Assembly: GCA_020346805.1 (NCBI GenBank) | Contig: CP070790.1 | Coordinates: forward strand, 3,220,710-3,235,985 | Length of the DNA: 15,276 nucleotides | Reading direction: 5' to 3' | DNA from: Planctomycetota bacterium | GTDB lineage: Bacteria > Planctomycetota > Phycisphaerae > UBA1845 > PWPN01 | Shown here: positions 6,923-15,276 of the stretch, in pieces | Position numbering within the stretch: position 1 is the stretch's first letter | Layout of the letters: the number at the start of each line of letters is the position of its first letter | Made by a program: the position numbers and the translations under genes | Notes under the pieces: generated by a model | The model's database searches: none | Seen by the model: only the letters and a program-made list of their open reading frames with translations | Told to the model about the DNA's origin: nothing

Positions 6923-7738
6923 ATGGCCAGACAATTCCATATCGACAGCAGTTATGCCGACGCCCTGGCCAATATCGGCCTCAAGGACTTCCCCAGCGTG
7001 ATGACTACAACCATCGGAACACCGGTTAGCGTACACAAAGACCGCGACGCGGTTCGCTTTCAGGCCGAAGTGCAAGACCAAAAACGTGAACTATTCCTTA
7101 AGCGAACGTTTCATCATCCCCTTATCGGACTCACTCGCGATATTGTTTTTGGTCGCCGGCCCCAGGCTCGGCCAATCTATGAATACAAGATCTGCAAGCA
7201 ACTGGAAAGTGCCGGTATCCCGGCCATGAAAGCGATCGGATACGGAGAGCATCGCCGTTGGGGACTGCCCAGTCAGGCATTTGTGATCGTCGAAGCGGTT
7301 CCCAGACGAATGTCTGTGCAAAAAGCATGGCAAGTACAGGCTGACGGTAGGCCTCGTTTGACATTAACCCAAAAACGCCGGCTAATTCGACAAGGTGCAA
7401 AACTGATATCCAGACTGCACCGGACAAACTTTCGCTGGCCCGACCTGGTAAGCAAGCATATCATGTTGGACCCGCCGCCATCCGACAACGCCCAGTCCCA
7501 ATGGCAGATTTATCTGATCGATCTCGAACGGATTTATATCGGCCAATCGGAAAAAAGCCGGCAGCGCGACCTGTTAAGCCTCTTGAAATCAATGCCCCCC
7601 AAGGCCCTGACCCGCACCGATCGGTTGCGATTTGCCATAAGTTATTGGAATGTGGGGAAAAAAACCTGGACCCAACAGAAAACTGCCATTCAAGCAGACA
7701 AACTGACAAAAAAGATCAGGCGGTTGCGTGTCGTATGA
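6923..7738 (+). CDS. Lipopolysaccharide kinase (WaaP/InaA/Kdo-kinase) family protein
   Basis: A 271-residue protein with a small protein-kinase-like fold. K60 (FLKR) fits the ATP-binding lysine and E87 (YEYK) its helix-C partner. HRTNFRWPDLVSKHIML (166-182) is the catalytic loop with D174, and YLIDLERIYI (197-206) gives the metal-binding Asp D200. This is the pattern of WaaP and KdkA enzymes, which phosphorylate lipid A core sugars at the inner membrane face. No signal peptide or membrane helix is seen. Substrate is inferred only at family level: core heptose, Kdo or another envelope sugar. The ATG at 6923 is the first in frame after a stop at 6917, and its Shine-Dalgarno is poor. The 44-base gap suggests co-transcription with ilvD, though the two jobs are unrelated. 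Confidence 0.8.
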   Translation: MARQFHIDSSYADALANIGLKDFPSVMTTTIGTPVSVHKDRDAVRFQAEVQDQKRELFLKRTFHHPLIGLTRDIVFGRRPQARPIYEYKICKQLESAGIPAMKAIGYGEHRRWGLPSQAFVIVEAVPRRMSVQKAWQVQADGRPRLTLTQKRRLIRQGAKLISRLHRTNFRWPDLVSKHIMLDPPPSDNAQSQWQIYLIDLERIYIGQSEKSRQRDLLSLLKSMPPKALTRTDRLRFAISYWNVGKKTWTQQKTAIQADKLTKKIRRLRVV

Positions 7739-7776: not shown

Positions 7777-8301
7777 CTAATATTCGCTGTATGCCTTACC
7801 ACTGTCATCCGTTGCCGTGGTGTTGGCGATAATATCTCCGGTGTTGGCGTTGAAAACCCACCCCTCGCCTGTACCTTCACTGACATTCGGCGGACTATTG
7901 ACATTATCGATCAGCACCGTACCGTTACCTTTGTTGGCACCAAGTGGCAGAGGTGGAATCCCCTTACGAAGATACGGACCGTAGGGGTGAGCGGCATCGC
8001 GGACATCAACAACTGCCCCGCTCGAATTGGAATACTTGGTCAACTGCGTAACCAGTGCATCCGCACCGGCCGGGTTGGTCCCGTCACCATTTTTACCAGG
8101 ATAAACACTGTCGTGCTCACTGGCATATAATTCAAGCGCGTTACGCAAAATCGCCAGATTGGCTACCAGTGCCGATTCACCGGCCCCCCTGGATCCCTGT
8201 GATACTCGAGGTATGGCGATGGCCGCCAGTACTCCAATGATCACAATCACAATAATAAGTTCCACTAAACTGAAACCACATTTCCCTCTTTTTCTGTCCA
8301 T
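7777..8301 (-). CDS. Type IV pilin-like / type II secretion pseudopilin
   Basis: A 174-residue prepilin. The short basic leader MDRKRGKCG is followed by FSLVELIIVIVIIGVLAAIAIP. The prepilin peptidase should cut after G9, F10 becomes the methylated first residue, and E14 is the conserved Glu at +5. The hydrophobic helix (10-31) anchors it in the inner membrane until assembly into a pilus or pseudopilus. The globular part includes a long insert with GIPPLPLGANKGNG and ends in GEGWVFNANTGDIIAN, a pattern I associate with stand-alone pseudopilins of Phycisphaerae. No assembly ATPase, secretin or peptidase gene is nearby, so it would use machinery encoded elsewhere. AGAGGGG (8309-8315 on the other strand) precedes the ATG by about seven bases and lies partly in a palindrome. 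Confidence 0.95.
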   Translation of the reverse strand: MDRKRGKCGFSLVELIIVIVIIGVLAAIAIPRVSQGSRGAGESALVANLAILRNALELYASEHDSVYPGKNGDGTNPAGADALVTQLTKYSNSSGAVVDVRDAAHPYGPYLRKGIPPLPLGANKGNGTVLIDNVNSPPNVSEGTGEGWVFNANTGDIIANTTATDDSGKAYSEY

Positions 8302-9900: not shown

Positions 9901-10839
9901 ATGAGGCCCACACCGCAAACTATCAGACCATTCCCTTATCACCCAGGCGACTCCTGGATGAGTCGGTTGGCAAAATCCAATCCTTTCGCCTGGACAATTT
10001 CAATTATCTTGCATGCCATAGTCTTCCTCGCACTCTATCAGATTGTCTTTCAAGAGTCGGCTCAACCTAAAAAATACATCATCCCCGAAGCCCGGCTGGT
10101 CGCCGGGGCCGATGCCAAATTACCGCAACCAACCGCACCCTTAAAACTATCTCGACAACCCCTGCCGGATTCCTTCAGCCGGCCAAAAATCCAAGAGCCC
10201 CCCATTACCGCCGTCACTCTTGATACTTCGTCGATATCGGCCCTAACCGAACGCGACAAACCGGACACCAGCATTCCCTTAACCTCGGCAGCGTCCGTCT
10301 CAACCCTCAACACCGGACCCGCCAGCAGCTTTTTCGGAATAGCCGGAAATGCCTACAAAGTGGTTTATGTTGTCGACGTCTCCGCCTCATTGATGATCTA
10401 TATCGACGAAATCGTCCGCGAAATGCGCGAATCGATCCGCGCACTTCTGCCCACCCAGCGTTTTCATATTGTATTAGCCAAACCTCGTAAGGTTGTCGAA
10501 TTCAGTCCCCGACGATTGGTACCGGCCATCGGAAAATACAAGACCCGGGCTAACTCCTTTATTGATACTATCACCGGTATCCCCCAGCCGGGGAAAGCCG
10601 ATCCTATCGAAGCCATGAAACGGGCCTTTGCCGTCCGCCCGCAGTTAATTTATTTCCTGACCGACGGTGACTATCCTGATATACAATCCGATCTGGAATT
10701 AACCTTACAACAGCTCAACACCAATCAGGAAGTCAAAATTACTACTATCGGATTCGATCCATCACCTAATCCCCGTACCCTGCTCGAACGAATTGCGCGG
10801 GATCACGGTGGTAATTTTCGTATGGTGGTATTAAAGTGA
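9901..10839 (+). CDS. TonB-like membrane anchor fused to a von Willebrand factor A domain
   Basis: A 312-residue (or 293 from Met20) inner-membrane protein. A single helix (about 30-50, WTISIILHAIVFLALYQIVF) is followed by a Pro/Thr/Ser-rich periplasmic linker (about 55-145) and a VWA domain (about 152-312). The helix carries S34-x3-H38, the pair that in TonB couples to ExbB/ExbD. From the internal ATG at 9958 they become S15 and H19, nearly the E. coli TonB numbering (S16, H20). The VWA domain has VVYVVDVSASL with the MIDAS core D159-x-S161-x-S163 and LTDGD (D255), but the usual Thr in GGTDP is replaced (GKADP, 231-235), so metal binding may be altered. No TonB C-terminal domain is present. 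Neither ATG has a strong Shine-Dalgarno. It heads an operon with ExbB and two ExbDs and overlaps the next gene by four bases. A plain membrane VWA protein is the conservative name. Confidence 0.9.
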   Translation: MRPTPQTIRPFPYHPGDSWMSRLAKSNPFAWTISIILHAIVFLALYQIVFQESAQPKKYIIPEARLVAGADAKLPQPTAPLKLSRQPLPDSFSRPKIQEPPITAVTLDTSSISALTERDKPDTSIPLTSAASVSTLNTGPASSFFGIAGNAYKVVYVVDVSASLMIYIDEIVREMRESIRALLPTQRFHIVLAKPRKVVEFSPRRLVPAIGKYKTRANSFIDTITGIPQPGKADPIEAMKRAFAVRPQLIYFLTDGDYPDIQSDLELTLQQLNTNQEVKITTIGFDPSPNPRTLLERIARDHGGNFRMVVLK

Positions 10840-11957
10840 GCGCAACCAAACACGCCAACTCGACTAAACTACTCTTATCAGGCGCGTCCCTTATCCTTAT
10901 CATTTTTGCATATGCCGTCGCCTACGTTCAAGCCGACGTACTGACTGCTAAAGGCCGCCCCACAGCCATTGATATAAAAATCGACAAATTGACCAACGGA
11001 AAACTTGAATACCGTCTGAGAACCGGCCGCCCGACCAGTAAACCTGTTGAACAAATCGAATACCTGCAAATCACCGGCTGGCCCCTGTTCAACCTGGCGG
11101 AAAAACAACAACGCGATAACCATATGCGACAAGCCGCCAATAGTTATGAAAAATTATTGTCGGAATTAACCGACGCCCCCGTTCAAGATAAAGATCCCCA
11201 ACTCCCCGAGACCGATCGCCTGGATCGAATAATGTTGGTTCAATGTCGACTGCTTCGAGTATATGACTCTCAGGGCCGCTTCGACCGGGCCGTTGATCTC
11301 TATCTAAAGATAATCGAACGCATGCCTGCCTGCCTGGAAACCCTTCGGCCCACAAATATACCGACCGCCGGATCAATATTTATTCAATCGGCGTTGTCTT
11401 CAGTAAATTCCGCCATTAAACGCCACCGGCAGGATGCCCTGAGTACATCACTCAGAAAATGGCGGGACACATGGCCCGGACAACAGCAAACGGATGACCA
11501 TACATCAACCGATCGCCAAACTGCCAGCCGGCCCGGAGAATCTTCCGAAATCAAGAACCTCCGTAATAAATTGCCCCAAATTCAATCAATGATCGATACC
11601 GGCCAATTCGACCAAGCCCTGCAGCAAATCAAATCTTTAAATTCTACCTCCGCAGGAATGCTCCGTGCGGATCTATATTATTGGCAAGCTCGGGCCTGGC
11701 TAGGCAAAAGCTCAGCCCAAAACACCCGGGATCAGAACAATCGCTCCCTGCAACGGGCTGCCCTGGCCTTTATGCGGGTAGTCATCCATTATCCGAATCA
11801 TAAGTACGGTCCAGAATGTTTATACCGTACCGGTCTGATTTGCCGGAAATTAGGTCGGCCGAATCTGACGGTCAGAATCTTCTCGGAGTTGGAACGAAAA
11901 TACCCGCTTTCGAATCCATGGGTAGAACGTGCCCAAAAGGAATTGAGCCGTTTATAA
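10836..11957 (+). CDS. Exported TPR protein, CpoB/YbgF-like C-terminus
   Basis: A 373-residue protein with a signal peptide or anchor (about 11-33, cleavage likely after VQA), so periplasmic. An N-terminal beta segment (about 34-85, with RPTAIDIKIDKLTNGKLEYRL) reads like a small barrel that precedes TPR regions in planctomycete proteins. Helical pairs follow (about 95-205), then a low-complexity hydrophilic linker (about 215-240), then helices to the end. The last part, AALAFMRVVIHYPNHKYGPECLYRTGLICRKLG and the next repeat with ERKYPLSNPW, matches the tandem TPR signature of CpoB/YbgF, a Tol-Pal partner. The start is GTG in a GTGA overlap with the VWA stop, pointing to translational coupling. 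Role inferred: scaffold for the VWA/ExbB/ExbD complex. Confidence 0.87.
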   Translation: MSATKHANSTKLLLSGASLILIIFAYAVAYVQADVLTAKGRPTAIDIKIDKLTNGKLEYRLRTGRPTSKPVEQIEYLQITGWPLFNLAEKQQRDNHMRQAANSYEKLLSELTDAPVQDKDPQLPETDRLDRIMLVQCRLLRVYDSQGRFDRAVDLYLKIIERMPACLETLRPTNIPTAGSIFIQSALSSVNSAIKRHRQDALSTSLRKWRDTWPGQQQTDDHTSTDRQTASRPGESSEIKNLRNKLPQIQSMIDTGQFDQALQQIKSLNSTSAGMLRADLYYWQARAWLGKSSAQNTRDQNNRSLQRAALAFMRVVIHYPNHKYGPECLYRTGLICRKLGRPNLTVRIFSELERKYPLSNPWVERAQKELSRL

Positions 11958-12021: not shown

Positions 12022-12783
12022 ATGAATACCTTGCTACAAATCGGGCATAACAATTATTGTCCACCCGTCGCACAAGGGGATATTTCTCCCGTCAATGTCC
12101 TTCAACATTTCGTGTGGGACGGCGGTCCAATTACCTGGTGCATATTAATACCCCTATCGGTGATAACCATTGCCCTGACCGTTCATTATTTGTTCACTAT
12201 TCGCCGAAAAACCTTAGCCCCCCCCGATCTGGCCAAGACATTGATCGCCGGTGCCCGACAGGGCCAGGCAAACAGCATCCGTCAGATCATTCGCGACGAC
12301 AACACCCTCCTCGCCCAGGCCGCTTACGCGGGATTATCCCAAATAGGCGCCGGCCGAGAAACCGCCCGCGCCGCCATCGACGAGGCCGTCGAAGAGCAGG
12401 CCACCAAGCTTTTTCGCAAGATTGAATATCTAAACATGATCGGCAATATAAGCCCCATGATCGGCTTGTTGGGAACTGTGGTGGGCATGATCAAGGCTTT
12501 CAACCGCATCTTCGCCGCCGGCGGGGGCATGCCCGATGCCGGCAAACTCGCCGGTGATATCGCCGTCGCCCTGGTAACCACTTTCTGGGGCATCCTCATC
12601 GCCATACCGGCACTGGCCGCATTTGCCCTCTTCAGGAATCGCATCGATGCCTTCGCTGCTGAAAGCGTGAAACTATGTGACGGTCTGCTTTCTTGGGTAT
12701 ACAAACAGAATACTGCCCAAACCGCTGAGAGGAATACTCAATCCTCATCGACAAAAAGAACGCCGCCGGTATCGCCGGCATAA
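12022..12783 (+). CDS. exbB: MotA/TolQ/ExbB proton channel family protein
   Basis: A 253-residue inner-membrane protein that forms the pentameric stator channel and turns proton flow into motion of a partner. Three membrane helices lie at about 37-57, 138-162 and 180-204, with the cytoplasmic loop between the first two, as in ExbB/TolQ. The signature LNMIGNISPMIGLLGTVVGMIKAF (137-160) carries T152, the counterpart of ExbB T148. ALVTTFWGILIAIPAL (183-198) carries T187, the counterpart of T181. The position of E. coli ExbB E176 looks hydrophobic here (V182), as far as an eye alignment can tell. The C-terminal tail (about 230-253) is polar and probably disordered. AGAGGA (12011-12016) supports the ATG. 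exbD follows after 11 bases. TolQ is an equally good family name; the neighbours decide little between them. Confidence 0.94.
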   Translation: MNTLLQIGHNNYCPPVAQGDISPVNVLQHFVWDGGPITWCILIPLSVITIALTVHYLFTIRRKTLAPPDLAKTLIAGARQGQANSIRQIIRDDNTLLAQAAYAGLSQIGAGRETARAAIDEAVEEQATKLFRKIEYLNMIGNISPMIGLLGTVVGMIKAFNRIFAAGGGMPDAGKLAGDIAVALVTTFWGILIAIPALAAFALFRNRIDAFAAESVKLCDGLLSWVYKQNTAQTAERNTQSSSTKRTPPVSPA

Positions 12784-12794
12784 TCAGGTGAAAC

Positions 12795-13235
12795 ATGCGC
12801 CGATTATTACACCAACACGACCATAGATCCGCGGGACGAATCAACATGACTCCCATGATCGACGTCACTTTTTTGTTGCTGACCTTCTTTATGCTCGCCA
12901 GCCATTTTGCATCGGCAGAAAAAATCGACGTCGATCTTCCCCAGCCCGACAACAACCAGTCCGTCGATCGCCGTTTCAAGGACAAGATCATCATCAACAT
13001 GCTCTACCACAACCAATACACCGAACCGTCGCTCACTTTGGGACCCATCGTTGTTACTTCGGTAAACGAATTGTCCGACCGCTTGCACGAACTGGGCCGG
13101 CAAAATCCAAAGGCGGAGGTAATCCTGCGCGCCGACCGCCGACTTAGTTACGGCAATGTTAAACAAATAATGGAAATAATCGCCGCCGAGAAATTGATCC
13201 GTTTGCAAATCGTTACCCAGATGGATCAACCGTAG
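12795..13235 (+). CDS. exbD: ExbD/TolR family protein, first copy
   Basis: A 146-residue inner-membrane protein with a short cytoplasmic tail, one helix (about 19-38) and a periplasmic domain. INMTPMIDVTFLLLTFFML holds D23, the proton-carrying Asp equal to D25 of E. coli ExbD. Just after the helix it has KIDVDLPQP (43-51), the conserved strand motif that ends in LP in ExbD/TolR. The rest is the usual ExbD fold, with VILRADRRLSYGNVKQIMEII (109-129). AGGTG (12786-12790) is the ribosome-binding site. It works with ExbB as a dimer inside the pentamer ring; here the partner could be itself or the second ExbD. Confidence 0.94.
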   Translation: MRRLLHQHDHRSAGRINMTPMIDVTFLLLTFFMLASHFASAEKIDVDLPQPDNNQSVDRRFKDKIIINMLYHNQYTEPSLTLGPIVVTSVNELSDRLHELGRQNPKAEVILRADRRLSYGNVKQIMEIIAAEKLIRLQIVTQMDQP

Positions 13236-13273: not shown

Positions 13274-13783
13274 ATGACGACAGCCAAACCGGAAAATAAT
13301 TCACCCCAACGGACCGCGGCTCCCATCTCATGGCGAATCCGCCAAAGGAGAAGGCCGATCAGTACCGTAATCTCGCTGAACCTGACTCCCATGATCGATA
13401 TTGTCTTTCTGTTGTTATTTTTCTTCCTGGTGGTAAGCCGATTTCGGGTCTTGGAAGGAATGCTGCCCGCCCAACTACCGGCCCAGACCGTCGCTGCCGC
13501 CGATGATATTCCACAAACCCCTATTCGAATCCGTTTTTTATACGATTCCGCCCTGCCCGATCGATGCAAGGTAACTATCGACCGATTCAATGAAACGCCT
13601 CTGCCCGTCGGACTGTTATCGGGTGCCTTGGCAAAAATTCGCGACAACCCCAACGGCTTCGACTGTAGTACACCCGTGCATATGTTGGCGGATGATGATG
13701 TCCCATGGGACCATATGGTTAACGCATACAACGCCGCCTTGAACGCCGGATATCAACAAATTCTCTTTGCTGGTTCAAAATGA
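13274..13783 (+). CDS. exbD: ExbD/TolR family protein, second, divergent copy
   Basis: A 169-residue paralogue of the preceding gene. Its cytoplasmic tail is longer (about 38 residues) and strongly basic (RIRQRRRP, 21-28). LNLTPMIDIVFLLLFFFLVV (35-54) keeps the proton-path Asp at D42. The periplasmic domain ends with VHMLADDDVPWDHMVNAYNAALNAGYQQILFA, which follows the ExbD fold, but the post-helix strand reads MLPAQLPAQ instead of the IDVDLP of copy one. The two are too different for a recent duplication, so a heterodimer is plausible. The Shine-Dalgarno is weak, and the gap to copy one is 38 bases. Its stop overlaps the next start as ATGA. Confidence 0.92.
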   Translation: MTTAKPENNSPQRTAAPISWRIRQRRRPISTVISLNLTPMIDIVFLLLFFFLVVSRFRVLEGMLPAQLPAQTVAAADDIPQTPIRIRFLYDSALPDRCKVTIDRFNETPLPVGLLSGALAKIRDNPNGFDCSTPVHMLADDDVPWDHMVNAYNAALNAGYQQILFAGSK

Positions 13784-15276
13784 CCGTACAAAATCACCTT
13801 TATCGAATTACCTGGACTCCTGTTTTACTCGTAATCATGAGCGCCGTATCCGCCGCCGACACCGACGCCCGGTCAAATACCTTACCAACTGCAGGCTATA
13901 TCGACGAAGCGGTCTTTCGCGAAGGCCTCAGACAGCGCGGCTTGACCGATCTGCTGGAACAATATTTTCAAGACAACCCCCCCCTCAACAAAATTGATGC
14001 CCAAATGCGACAAAGGGAGGAATTGCTCGAAAAAGCTTCGCAACAAATAATCCCAAACCATCAGCGAGAATCAATCATCGATAAAGCAAGTGATATCCTT
14101 TCAAAATTAATCGAGAAACACCCCAATCATCCGGCACGATTGCGTTGGCGCTACGAACTTGCCCGCGATATCCTCGAACGCAAAGACCCGACAATATTCG
14201 ATATCCTCTTATTGTATGAATTACCGGGCCGCGATCGGGTAAAAGCCGGCAAGCTGAGCCGGCGGGCCATCGAAGTACTCAATCATCTCAGACAACAAAC
14301 CGACGCAATCTGGCAGGCGGCTGAGGCTCTCGACGAGACCGCACTTGAGCAGGTAACCGTTTCTGGGGCCCTGCAATCCGTCGAAGCAATCGATATGCAG
14401 TCCGCATTTCTACTAAGCTGGGCCAGGTTGTACCATGCCCTTAGTTTAGAACCGGCCGAAGCTCAACCATCGGCCGTCTGGTCGGATCTGTTGGCCCAGG
14501 TAACCGAAAAGTACGGTTGGATCAAACTGCCGGCCGGCCGGGAAACCCAACAATGCAGCGCCTTGATAATCGCCGCCACCGCCGCCCGACGTCTCGGACA
14601 ATTCAATGAAGCCAACGACTACGCTCGGCAAATCATTACTTCATTGGCCCAGGTCGACAATCCCGAAACCCGCAAACAACTAAGCCGGGCCTCACTGACT
14701 GCCGTCCTGGAACAAATCCGAATCCTCCGAGACCGCAATCGCCAGGACGATGCCCAAAAAGCTATCAAGCAGGCCCACCACTGGGCAAAACGCACCCGTC
14801 CCGACGACATACAAACCGACCTGGCCCTGGCACTCACCGAACACAGCCTGCTGACTGGCAAACTTCCCACCGCTACCAAACCGACCGAAACCAACCATAT
14901 CGAGACTTTTATCCTCCATCACCATAGCCTCGCACCCCTCAAGCAATTAGCCAACAAATCACCATCCCATCGGGATGCTTTATACTCCATCCTGGCCGGT
15001 GCATTGGAAACAGAACCCTTGAACATCAGCCGCACGACATTTGCTCTACAACTGATCGTGGGCGCAGCCGTCATGGATGCCAGGATTAATCGCTCGGCTC
15101 CCCATTCCACAATTGATAAACGACTAAATGAAGTTATCGATGCTCTAGAGAACACCTCTTATGAAGTATCACCCGATACTCTGTTCAGCATTGCCGAACT
15201 GAGCTATCTATCCGCTCAGGCATATTATTTAGCGGGCCGTCACTTAACTGCGGTCAATAAACTGTTAAGCTATGTT
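13780..15276 (+). CDS. Exported helical (TPR-like) protein, cut by the window end
   Basis: An open frame of 499 codons with no stop before the end of the window, so the gene is partial at its 3' end. The ATG overlaps the stop of the second ExbD (ATGA), which suggests translational coupling. The start MTVQNHLYRITWTPVLLVIMSAVSAAD is a signal peptide with likely cleavage after SAA, so the protein is exported. The mature part is almost entirely helical, with TPR-like pieces such as AQPSAVWSDLLAQVTEKYGW and RQDDAQKAIKQAHHWAKRTR. I recognise no named family. A role as a large periplasmic scaffold of the VWA/ExbB/ExbD machine is inferred from the operon. Codon use matches the neighbouring genes. Confidence 0.85.
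   Translation, partial: MTVQNHLYRITWTPVLLVIMSAVSAADTDARSNTLPTAGYIDEAVFREGLRQRGLTDLLEQYFQDNPPLNKIDAQMRQREELLEKASQQIIPNHQRESIIDKASDILSKLIEKHPNHPARLRWRYELARDILERKDPTIFDILLLYELPGRDRVKAGKLSRRAIEVLNHLRQQTDAIWQAAEALDETALEQVTVSGALQSVEAIDMQSAFLLSWARLYHALSLEPAEAQPSAVWSDLLAQVTEKYGWIKLPAGRETQQCSALIIAATAARRLGQFNEANDYARQIITSLAQVDNPETRKQLSRASLTAVLEQIRILRDRNRQDDAQKAIKQAHHWAKRTRPDDIQTDLALALTEHSLLTGKLPTATKPTETNHIETFILHHHSLAPLKQLANKSPSHRDALYSILAGALETEPLNISRTTFALQLIVGAAVMDARINRSAPHSTIDKRLNEVIDALENTSYEVSPDTLFSIAELSYLSAQAYYLAGRHLTAVNKLLSYV

Follow-up and report, generated by a model that had tools for sequence, protein, structure and literature searches.

A VWA-domain protein as probable TonB/TolA-type force transducer at the head of an exbB-exbD-exbD operon in a planctomycete

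Gene content and layout of the operon

The stretch of DNA under study (the window; 15,276 nt of contig CP070790.1 from the Planctomycetota assembly GCA_020346805.1) carries an operon with the gene order VWA-TPR-ExbB-ExbD-ExbD-TPR, all on the + strand and headed by the VWA gene. A first-pass annotation made from the letters had rightly placed the VWA gene first in an exbB-exbD-exbD operon, but had missed the two TPR genes. The VWA gene, a single ORF (9901..10839, +), encodes a force-transducer candidate of 312 aa that consists of a single membrane helix bearing S34 and H38 (residues 27-50; 9979..10050, +), a Pro/Ser/Thr-rich disordered linker (residues 51-140; 10051..10320, +), and a VWA domain (about residues 141-312; 10321..10836, +) with DxSxS at 159-163, A233, and D255. 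All three parts had been named in the first-pass annotation, and all are borne out: the helix by the structure model and by a 78-row alignment, in which S34 and H38 are invariant; the linker by composition and low pLDDT; and the VWA domain by a Pfam match, the fold of the model, and the alignment. The linker is of about 100 residues, and the spacing from helix to VWA domain is 98-138 residues across the 78 rows. Pfam identifies no domain besides VWA in the 312-aa protein, and specifically no TonB C-terminal domain (PF03544). The sortase-target VWA model TIGR03788 (NCBIfam) matches 27 of the 78 members at E<=0.001, the query not being among them. The structure matches listed for the protein concern essentially the VWA part, the helix and linker being hardly probed by fold.

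The start of the second gene overlaps the VWA stop by 4 bases; it encodes TPR protein 1 (10836..11957, +), which has an N-terminal signal sequence (by eye), matches to TPR_2 and TPR_6 just above cut-off, and a match to a YbgF/CpoB-type TPR model (E=1.5e-9) that lies below the cut-off of that model. The motor genes follow, encoding an ExbB/TolQ-type subunit of 253 aa (12022..12783, +; MotA_ExbB, 99.7 bits), a first ExbD/TolR-type subunit of 146 aa with Asp D23 (12795..13235, +; ExbD, 92.1 bits), and a second of 169 aa with Asp D42 (13274..13783, +; ExbD, 56.4 bits). The gene for the long TPR protein 2 (13780..15276, +) overlaps the stop of the second exbD by 4 bases and is open at the window end; the frames of its relatives are mostly about 870-990 aa, and TPR matches are clear in one relative and weak in another as well as in the window's own part.

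The same layout was followed through 86 fetched loci, which were chosen from longer lists, several of them for extra copies, and from which L046 and L050 were left out as repeats of L038 and L037. An ExbB match of >100 bits is present in 65/86, a proportion that reflects this choice and is not an estimate for the taxonomic class. In 65/65 exbB-bearing loci, the VWA gene and exbB share a strand, with the VWA gene 5' and no more than 5 kb away; at least one same-strand exbD follows exbB in 65/65, and at least two follow in 62/65 (64/65 if either strand is counted). TPR protein 1 was recognised before exbB in 42/65 loci and TPR protein 2 after it in 41/65. Because TPR protein 1 is recognised in 42/65 loci only, it cannot be the sole class-wide partner of the VWA protein unless it was missed in the others, and its candidacy as a universal partner was dropped on that count. 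Tandem VWA transducer genes (2-3 copies) precede one motor in L066, L068, L070, L072, L074, L077, L078, and L080. At L036, the VWA and TPR protein 1 genes are present with no exbB in the 16.9 kb fetched, and the helix keeps SxxxH; this is perhaps a split operon.

Motor residues and the Ser/His pair

The ExbB-type subunit carries T152 and T187, which align on T145 and T178 of TolQ, the two Thr given as essential in a 2026 review (PMC12905483). T152, T187, and P145 are invariant in 40/40 rows, and P196 is kept in 38/40. D23 of the first ExbD-type subunit aligns with D23 of TolR and is kept in 35/35 rows, and D42 of the second is kept in the 47/47 rows having the column (48 rows in all); these rows are drawn from the first batch of loci, with the window's own sequence counted twice. 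The first membrane helix (TM1) of ExbB, which the TolQ alignment leaves out, has a conserved Ser (S46, 38/40) and no conserved Trp; TM1 of ExbB/TolQ is described as carrying both Ser and Trp in the review (PMC12905483). The best NCBIfam scores are with tolQ for ExbB and with tolR for the first ExbD, both below cut-off. As judged from sequence, the proton motor is complete, with its key residues intact.

The Ser-x3-His of the VWA protein is S34-x3-H38, and there is no Asp within residues 27-50. The SHLS motif, defined in the review as Ser-3x-His-6x-Leu-3x-Ser (PMC12905483), is represented by S34, H38, and L45, with V49 at the fourth position; Ser is found at this last position in 1/78 rows and Leu at 45 in 33/78. 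In the vWA transducers described so far, the motif is given as present in many, not all, members (PMC12204202). Across the 78 aligned relatives, mean column identity is 25% and 16 columns in all are invariant, among them those of S34 and H38. In a database search that returned 121 rows, these are the best conserved two of positions 22-59, with Ser in 113/114 and His in 114/115 of the rows having the column; one row (P0100) breaks both. The first-pass annotation had advised a search with TonB N-terminal models, which yielded nothing: no TonB-type N-terminal model in Pfam or NCBIfam matched. The NCBIfam tolA_full model aligns with residues 31-95 only, at 12.3 bits and E=0.074 (cut-off 59.45). 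When the VWA family profile was compared with PDB sequences, the third match was TolA of 9ddm (E=0.037), a weak and merely suggestive match in which the helices align Ser on Ser and His on His; the 41-residue helix piece alone had no match in PDB sequences.

A survey of the pair in homologues, likewise advised in the first-pass annotation, was made according to proximity to a motor, a VWA copy being taken as motor-linked if exbB lies on the same strand within 5 kb. None of the 75 motor-linked copies lacks the His (75/75), so that the first finding named in the first-pass annotation as refuting its reading did not come up; the Ser is present in 72/75 and replaced by Ala in 3/75, these Ala+His copies occurring twice at L077 and once at L080. 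The 75 leave out L098, which has an ExbB match of just 25 bits and no pair (if it is kept, His is present in 75/76) and which is also outside the 28 unlinked copies; L107 was scored by reading the sequence, the scripted segment having lain upstream of the likely start. Among the 28 copies not near exbB, SxxxH is present in 14 and absent in 14. Eleven of the 14 pair-less copies begin with a signal-peptide or lipobox-like segment; the others are L039, with its N-terminus cut off, L090, with a pair-less membrane helix, and L105, with no clear helix (all by eye). Some of the unlinked copies that keep SxxxH sit on contigs that are cut off or belong to tandem clusters; L033, L035, and L036 are on short contigs or in a split operon, and L079, L092, L101, L121, L126, and L128 are orphan-like within the stretch fetched. 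As a background rate, SxxxH occurs in 12/433 other mechanically called ORFs with a hydrophobic segment. The pair is always present beside the motor, apart from the Ala replacements of Ser, and its absence is accompanied by a lost motor neighbour, but not vice versa.

Known systems, metal site, and occurrence

The first-pass annotation had taken the layout to be novel, and this claim is superseded by a paper of 2025: Williams-Jones et al. (Mol Biol Evol 42:msaf138; PMC12204202) describe proteins in which an SHLS-motif helix and a disordered linker lead to a vWA domain; their genes, found in Planctomycetes and other phyla, neighbour TPR, tolQ-like, and paired tolR-like genes. An AF3 model of other members in that paper has the vWA-transducer helix docked by its His on the motor edge (PMC12204202). 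Within the literature searched, which left most subscription papers and all of bioRxiv aside, a vWA transducer is described in that paper alone; the 2026 review PMC12905483 cites it, with vWA absent from the review's main text. The layout is therefore already known, and the window's protein joins the predicted class of PMC12204202, with which it shares the single N-terminal helix with conserved Ser and His, the disordered linker, the C-terminal vWA fold, and the TPR, tolQ-like, and two tolR-like neighbours. It differs in gene order, the vWA gene of PVC-group bacteria often lying downstream of the other genes according to the text of PMC12204202, whereas it is 5' of exbB in 65/65 loci here, as well as in the second long TPR gene (41/65 loci) and in the loss of the metal-site Thr from the window's family. 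The transpore-helix vWA proteins of the same paper (Fig. 4c-d) are likewise membrane-tethered vWA proteins encoded beside a TolQ-type gene, but have no Ser/His motif, a helix Asp, and no tolR, whereas the window's protein has no helix Asp and is accompanied by two exbD genes. TonB and TolA are described as having C-terminal domains that are related to each other and grip a partner strand (PMC12905483). The VWA protein shares with TonB the Ser-x3-His helix, the Pro-rich linker, and the ExbB/ExbD partners, but has a VWA domain in place of the TonB C-terminal domain, for which there is no match in the protein or the genome. With TolA it shares the helix motif, as aligned in the PDB profile search, and a TPR neighbour that resembles YbgF/CpoB below cut-offs; unlike TolA, it ends in a VWA domain rather than the TolA C-terminal domain, and the operon genes in the window include no tolB or pal match (Pfam, NCBIfam). 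What is new here is the near-universal presence of the gene in the taxonomic class, its independence of the receptor Plug domain, and the loss of the metal-site Thr in the window's family.

The metal site (MIDAS) of VWA domains, which we take to be formed by DxSxS, a Thr, and an Asp and to require the Thr, is altered in the window's clade, in which the helix motif is kept. In the query, DxSxS and D255 are kept and the Thr position is A233. Among the 51 close rows (query included), this position is Ala in 49/51 and Thr in 0/51, and among the 27 distant rows it is Thr in 17/27; D159, S163, and D255 are kept in 78/78 rows, and S161 in 76/78, with Thr in the remaining two. Because the metal-site Thr is lost in the window's family, the VWA domain there probably grips otherwise than in the classic metal-dependent way.

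A match to the VWA gene was found in 190/200 genomes from genus to class level (own genome included). A profile search of 30 of these 200, a choice that took in divergent genomes and five of the ten match-less ones, detected it in 26/30, very weakly in G035, which is among those five. TonB_C and Plug have no match in the window's own genome, absences that are weaker than they look because the genome is rated 72.75% complete; two MotA/ExbB loci were found in it, that of the window and a motA-like one, after which comes a motB-like gene encoding an OmpA domain. Across the 200 genomes, Plug is present in 84 and TonB_C in 60. Presence of the VWA gene is independent of Plug (79/84 with Plug, 111/116 without; Fisher p 0.74), and the gene is found in 85/90 genomes having neither TonB_C nor Plug. 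It is also found in all 60 genomes with TonB_C, the 10 genomes without a VWA match all being without TonB_C (p 0.034); thus VWA and TonB are not alternatives in the class. We tentatively suggest that the VWA arm, more so than TonB or TolA, could be the general route of the class by which proton-driven force reaches the outer envelope, with a metal-free grip in the window's family. Its gene occurs almost throughout the class, its presence does not depend on TonB receptors, and in the window's genome it is tied to the only motor gene found apart from the motA-like one; we regard this wider reading as possible rather than likely.

Proposed mechanism and alternatives

The VWA protein, anchored in the inner membrane, looks as though the proton-driven motor pulls it in the manner of TonB or TolA, and we infer that it is probably a force transducer of this type whose outer domain has been exchanged. 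Its helix would pack, by the Ser/His face, on the outside of the ExbB pentamer, beside the first ExbB membrane helix; proton flow past the ExbD Asp would turn the motor, by which the helix would be moved or released, and the VWA domain would then pull a periplasmic or outer-membrane partner. The likeliest first partner would be the co-translated TPR protein 1 and, via it, the long TPR protein 2, an arrangement like that of TolA and CpoB, which would serve envelope upkeep and not nutrient uptake; by this analogy the TPR proteins are the best first guess as partners. A motor arm tipped with a VWA domain would mean that motor and grip are separable, and it points to an as yet unnamed envelope process in planctomycetes that would use proton energy. 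Given its breadth (190/200 genomes), the gene would be well suited to a first genetic test in a cultured member of the class.

VWA domains commonly act as binding modules, and the protein might instead be a regulator or sensor of the motor, a plug or brake whose helix docks while its VWA domain detects a ligand in the periplasm and so opens the channel, with no force passed on. The disordered linker is compatible with such a role, and the Ser/His contact in TonB and TolA is suspected to signal to the channel, according to PMC12905483. However, the TonB/TolA layout is matched closely, down to the 98-138 residues between helix and VWA domain that a local sensor would not need, and the other operon genes in the window encode no further candidate for a membrane-anchored transducer (Pfam, NCBIfam), so that we consider a regulator unlikely. 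The 65/65 loci in which the VWA gene lies 5' of the exbB-exbD set speak against a different proposal, by which an ordinary membrane-anchored VWA protein, of a Bat-like VWA/TPR set, happens to share the motor operon and carries the Ser/His pair as a relic of its lineage. Adjoining VWA and TPR genes do recall aerotolerance-type operons, and SxxxH is kept in 14/28 copies not near exbB; yet nothing else in this fast-changing helix is as well conserved as the pair, which is absent from copies with signal-peptide or lipobox-like starts, and we give a relic only the slimmest chance.

A further alternative, by which the VWA domain replaces TonB and energises TonB-dependent receptors in lineages without a TonB C-terminal domain, draws on the window's family, in which Plug is present in 7/13 genomes (own included; 7/12 relatives) and TonB_C in 0/13. 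The first-pass annotation had proposed a VWA-ended coupling arm that does not serve a TonB-dependent transporter; the Ser/His pair, the motor residues, and the lack of TonB_C and Plug matches in the own genome agree with it. It is supported in part, since service to such receptors is conceivable in the 7/12 relatives with Plug and no TonB_C match. Around six of these Plug genes, 6 frames of 4 loci (one locus being 3 kb) have SxxxH close to a hydrophobic segment, but no second transducer is obvious there, the SxxxH falling outside the helix or ahead of the likely start (by eye). On the other hand, VWA presence is independent of Plug across the 200 genomes, the window's genome has no Plug match, and the TonB_C model can miss a divergent TonB. 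Eight same-family relatives also have 3-4 MotA/ExbB loci (flagellar and other kinds pooled), so that receptors there may use another motor and less likely the VWA one. Replacement of TonB is thus very unlikely in our judgement, and a TonB/TolA-type transducer with an outer domain of its own remains the preferred reading. Genomes with Plug and without any TonB_C match include G002, G003, G005, G007, G008, G009, and G011.

Other genes were seen in passing. At 7777-8301 (-), the window encodes a type IV pilin/GspG-like protein with an N-terminal methylation motif. OmpA-domain proteins with lipobox-like starts (by eye) are encoded at L086 (7080-7730, -) and L087 (6542-7462, +), separate from the two motor loci of the genome, and are possible Pal-like anchors. 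A gene like those for Kdo/WaaP-type LPS core kinases lies at 6923-7738 (+) of the window (Pfam Kdo, 76.6 bits; RfaP, E=1.3e-23, below cut-off), which hints that the outer membrane of this organism is LPS-like.
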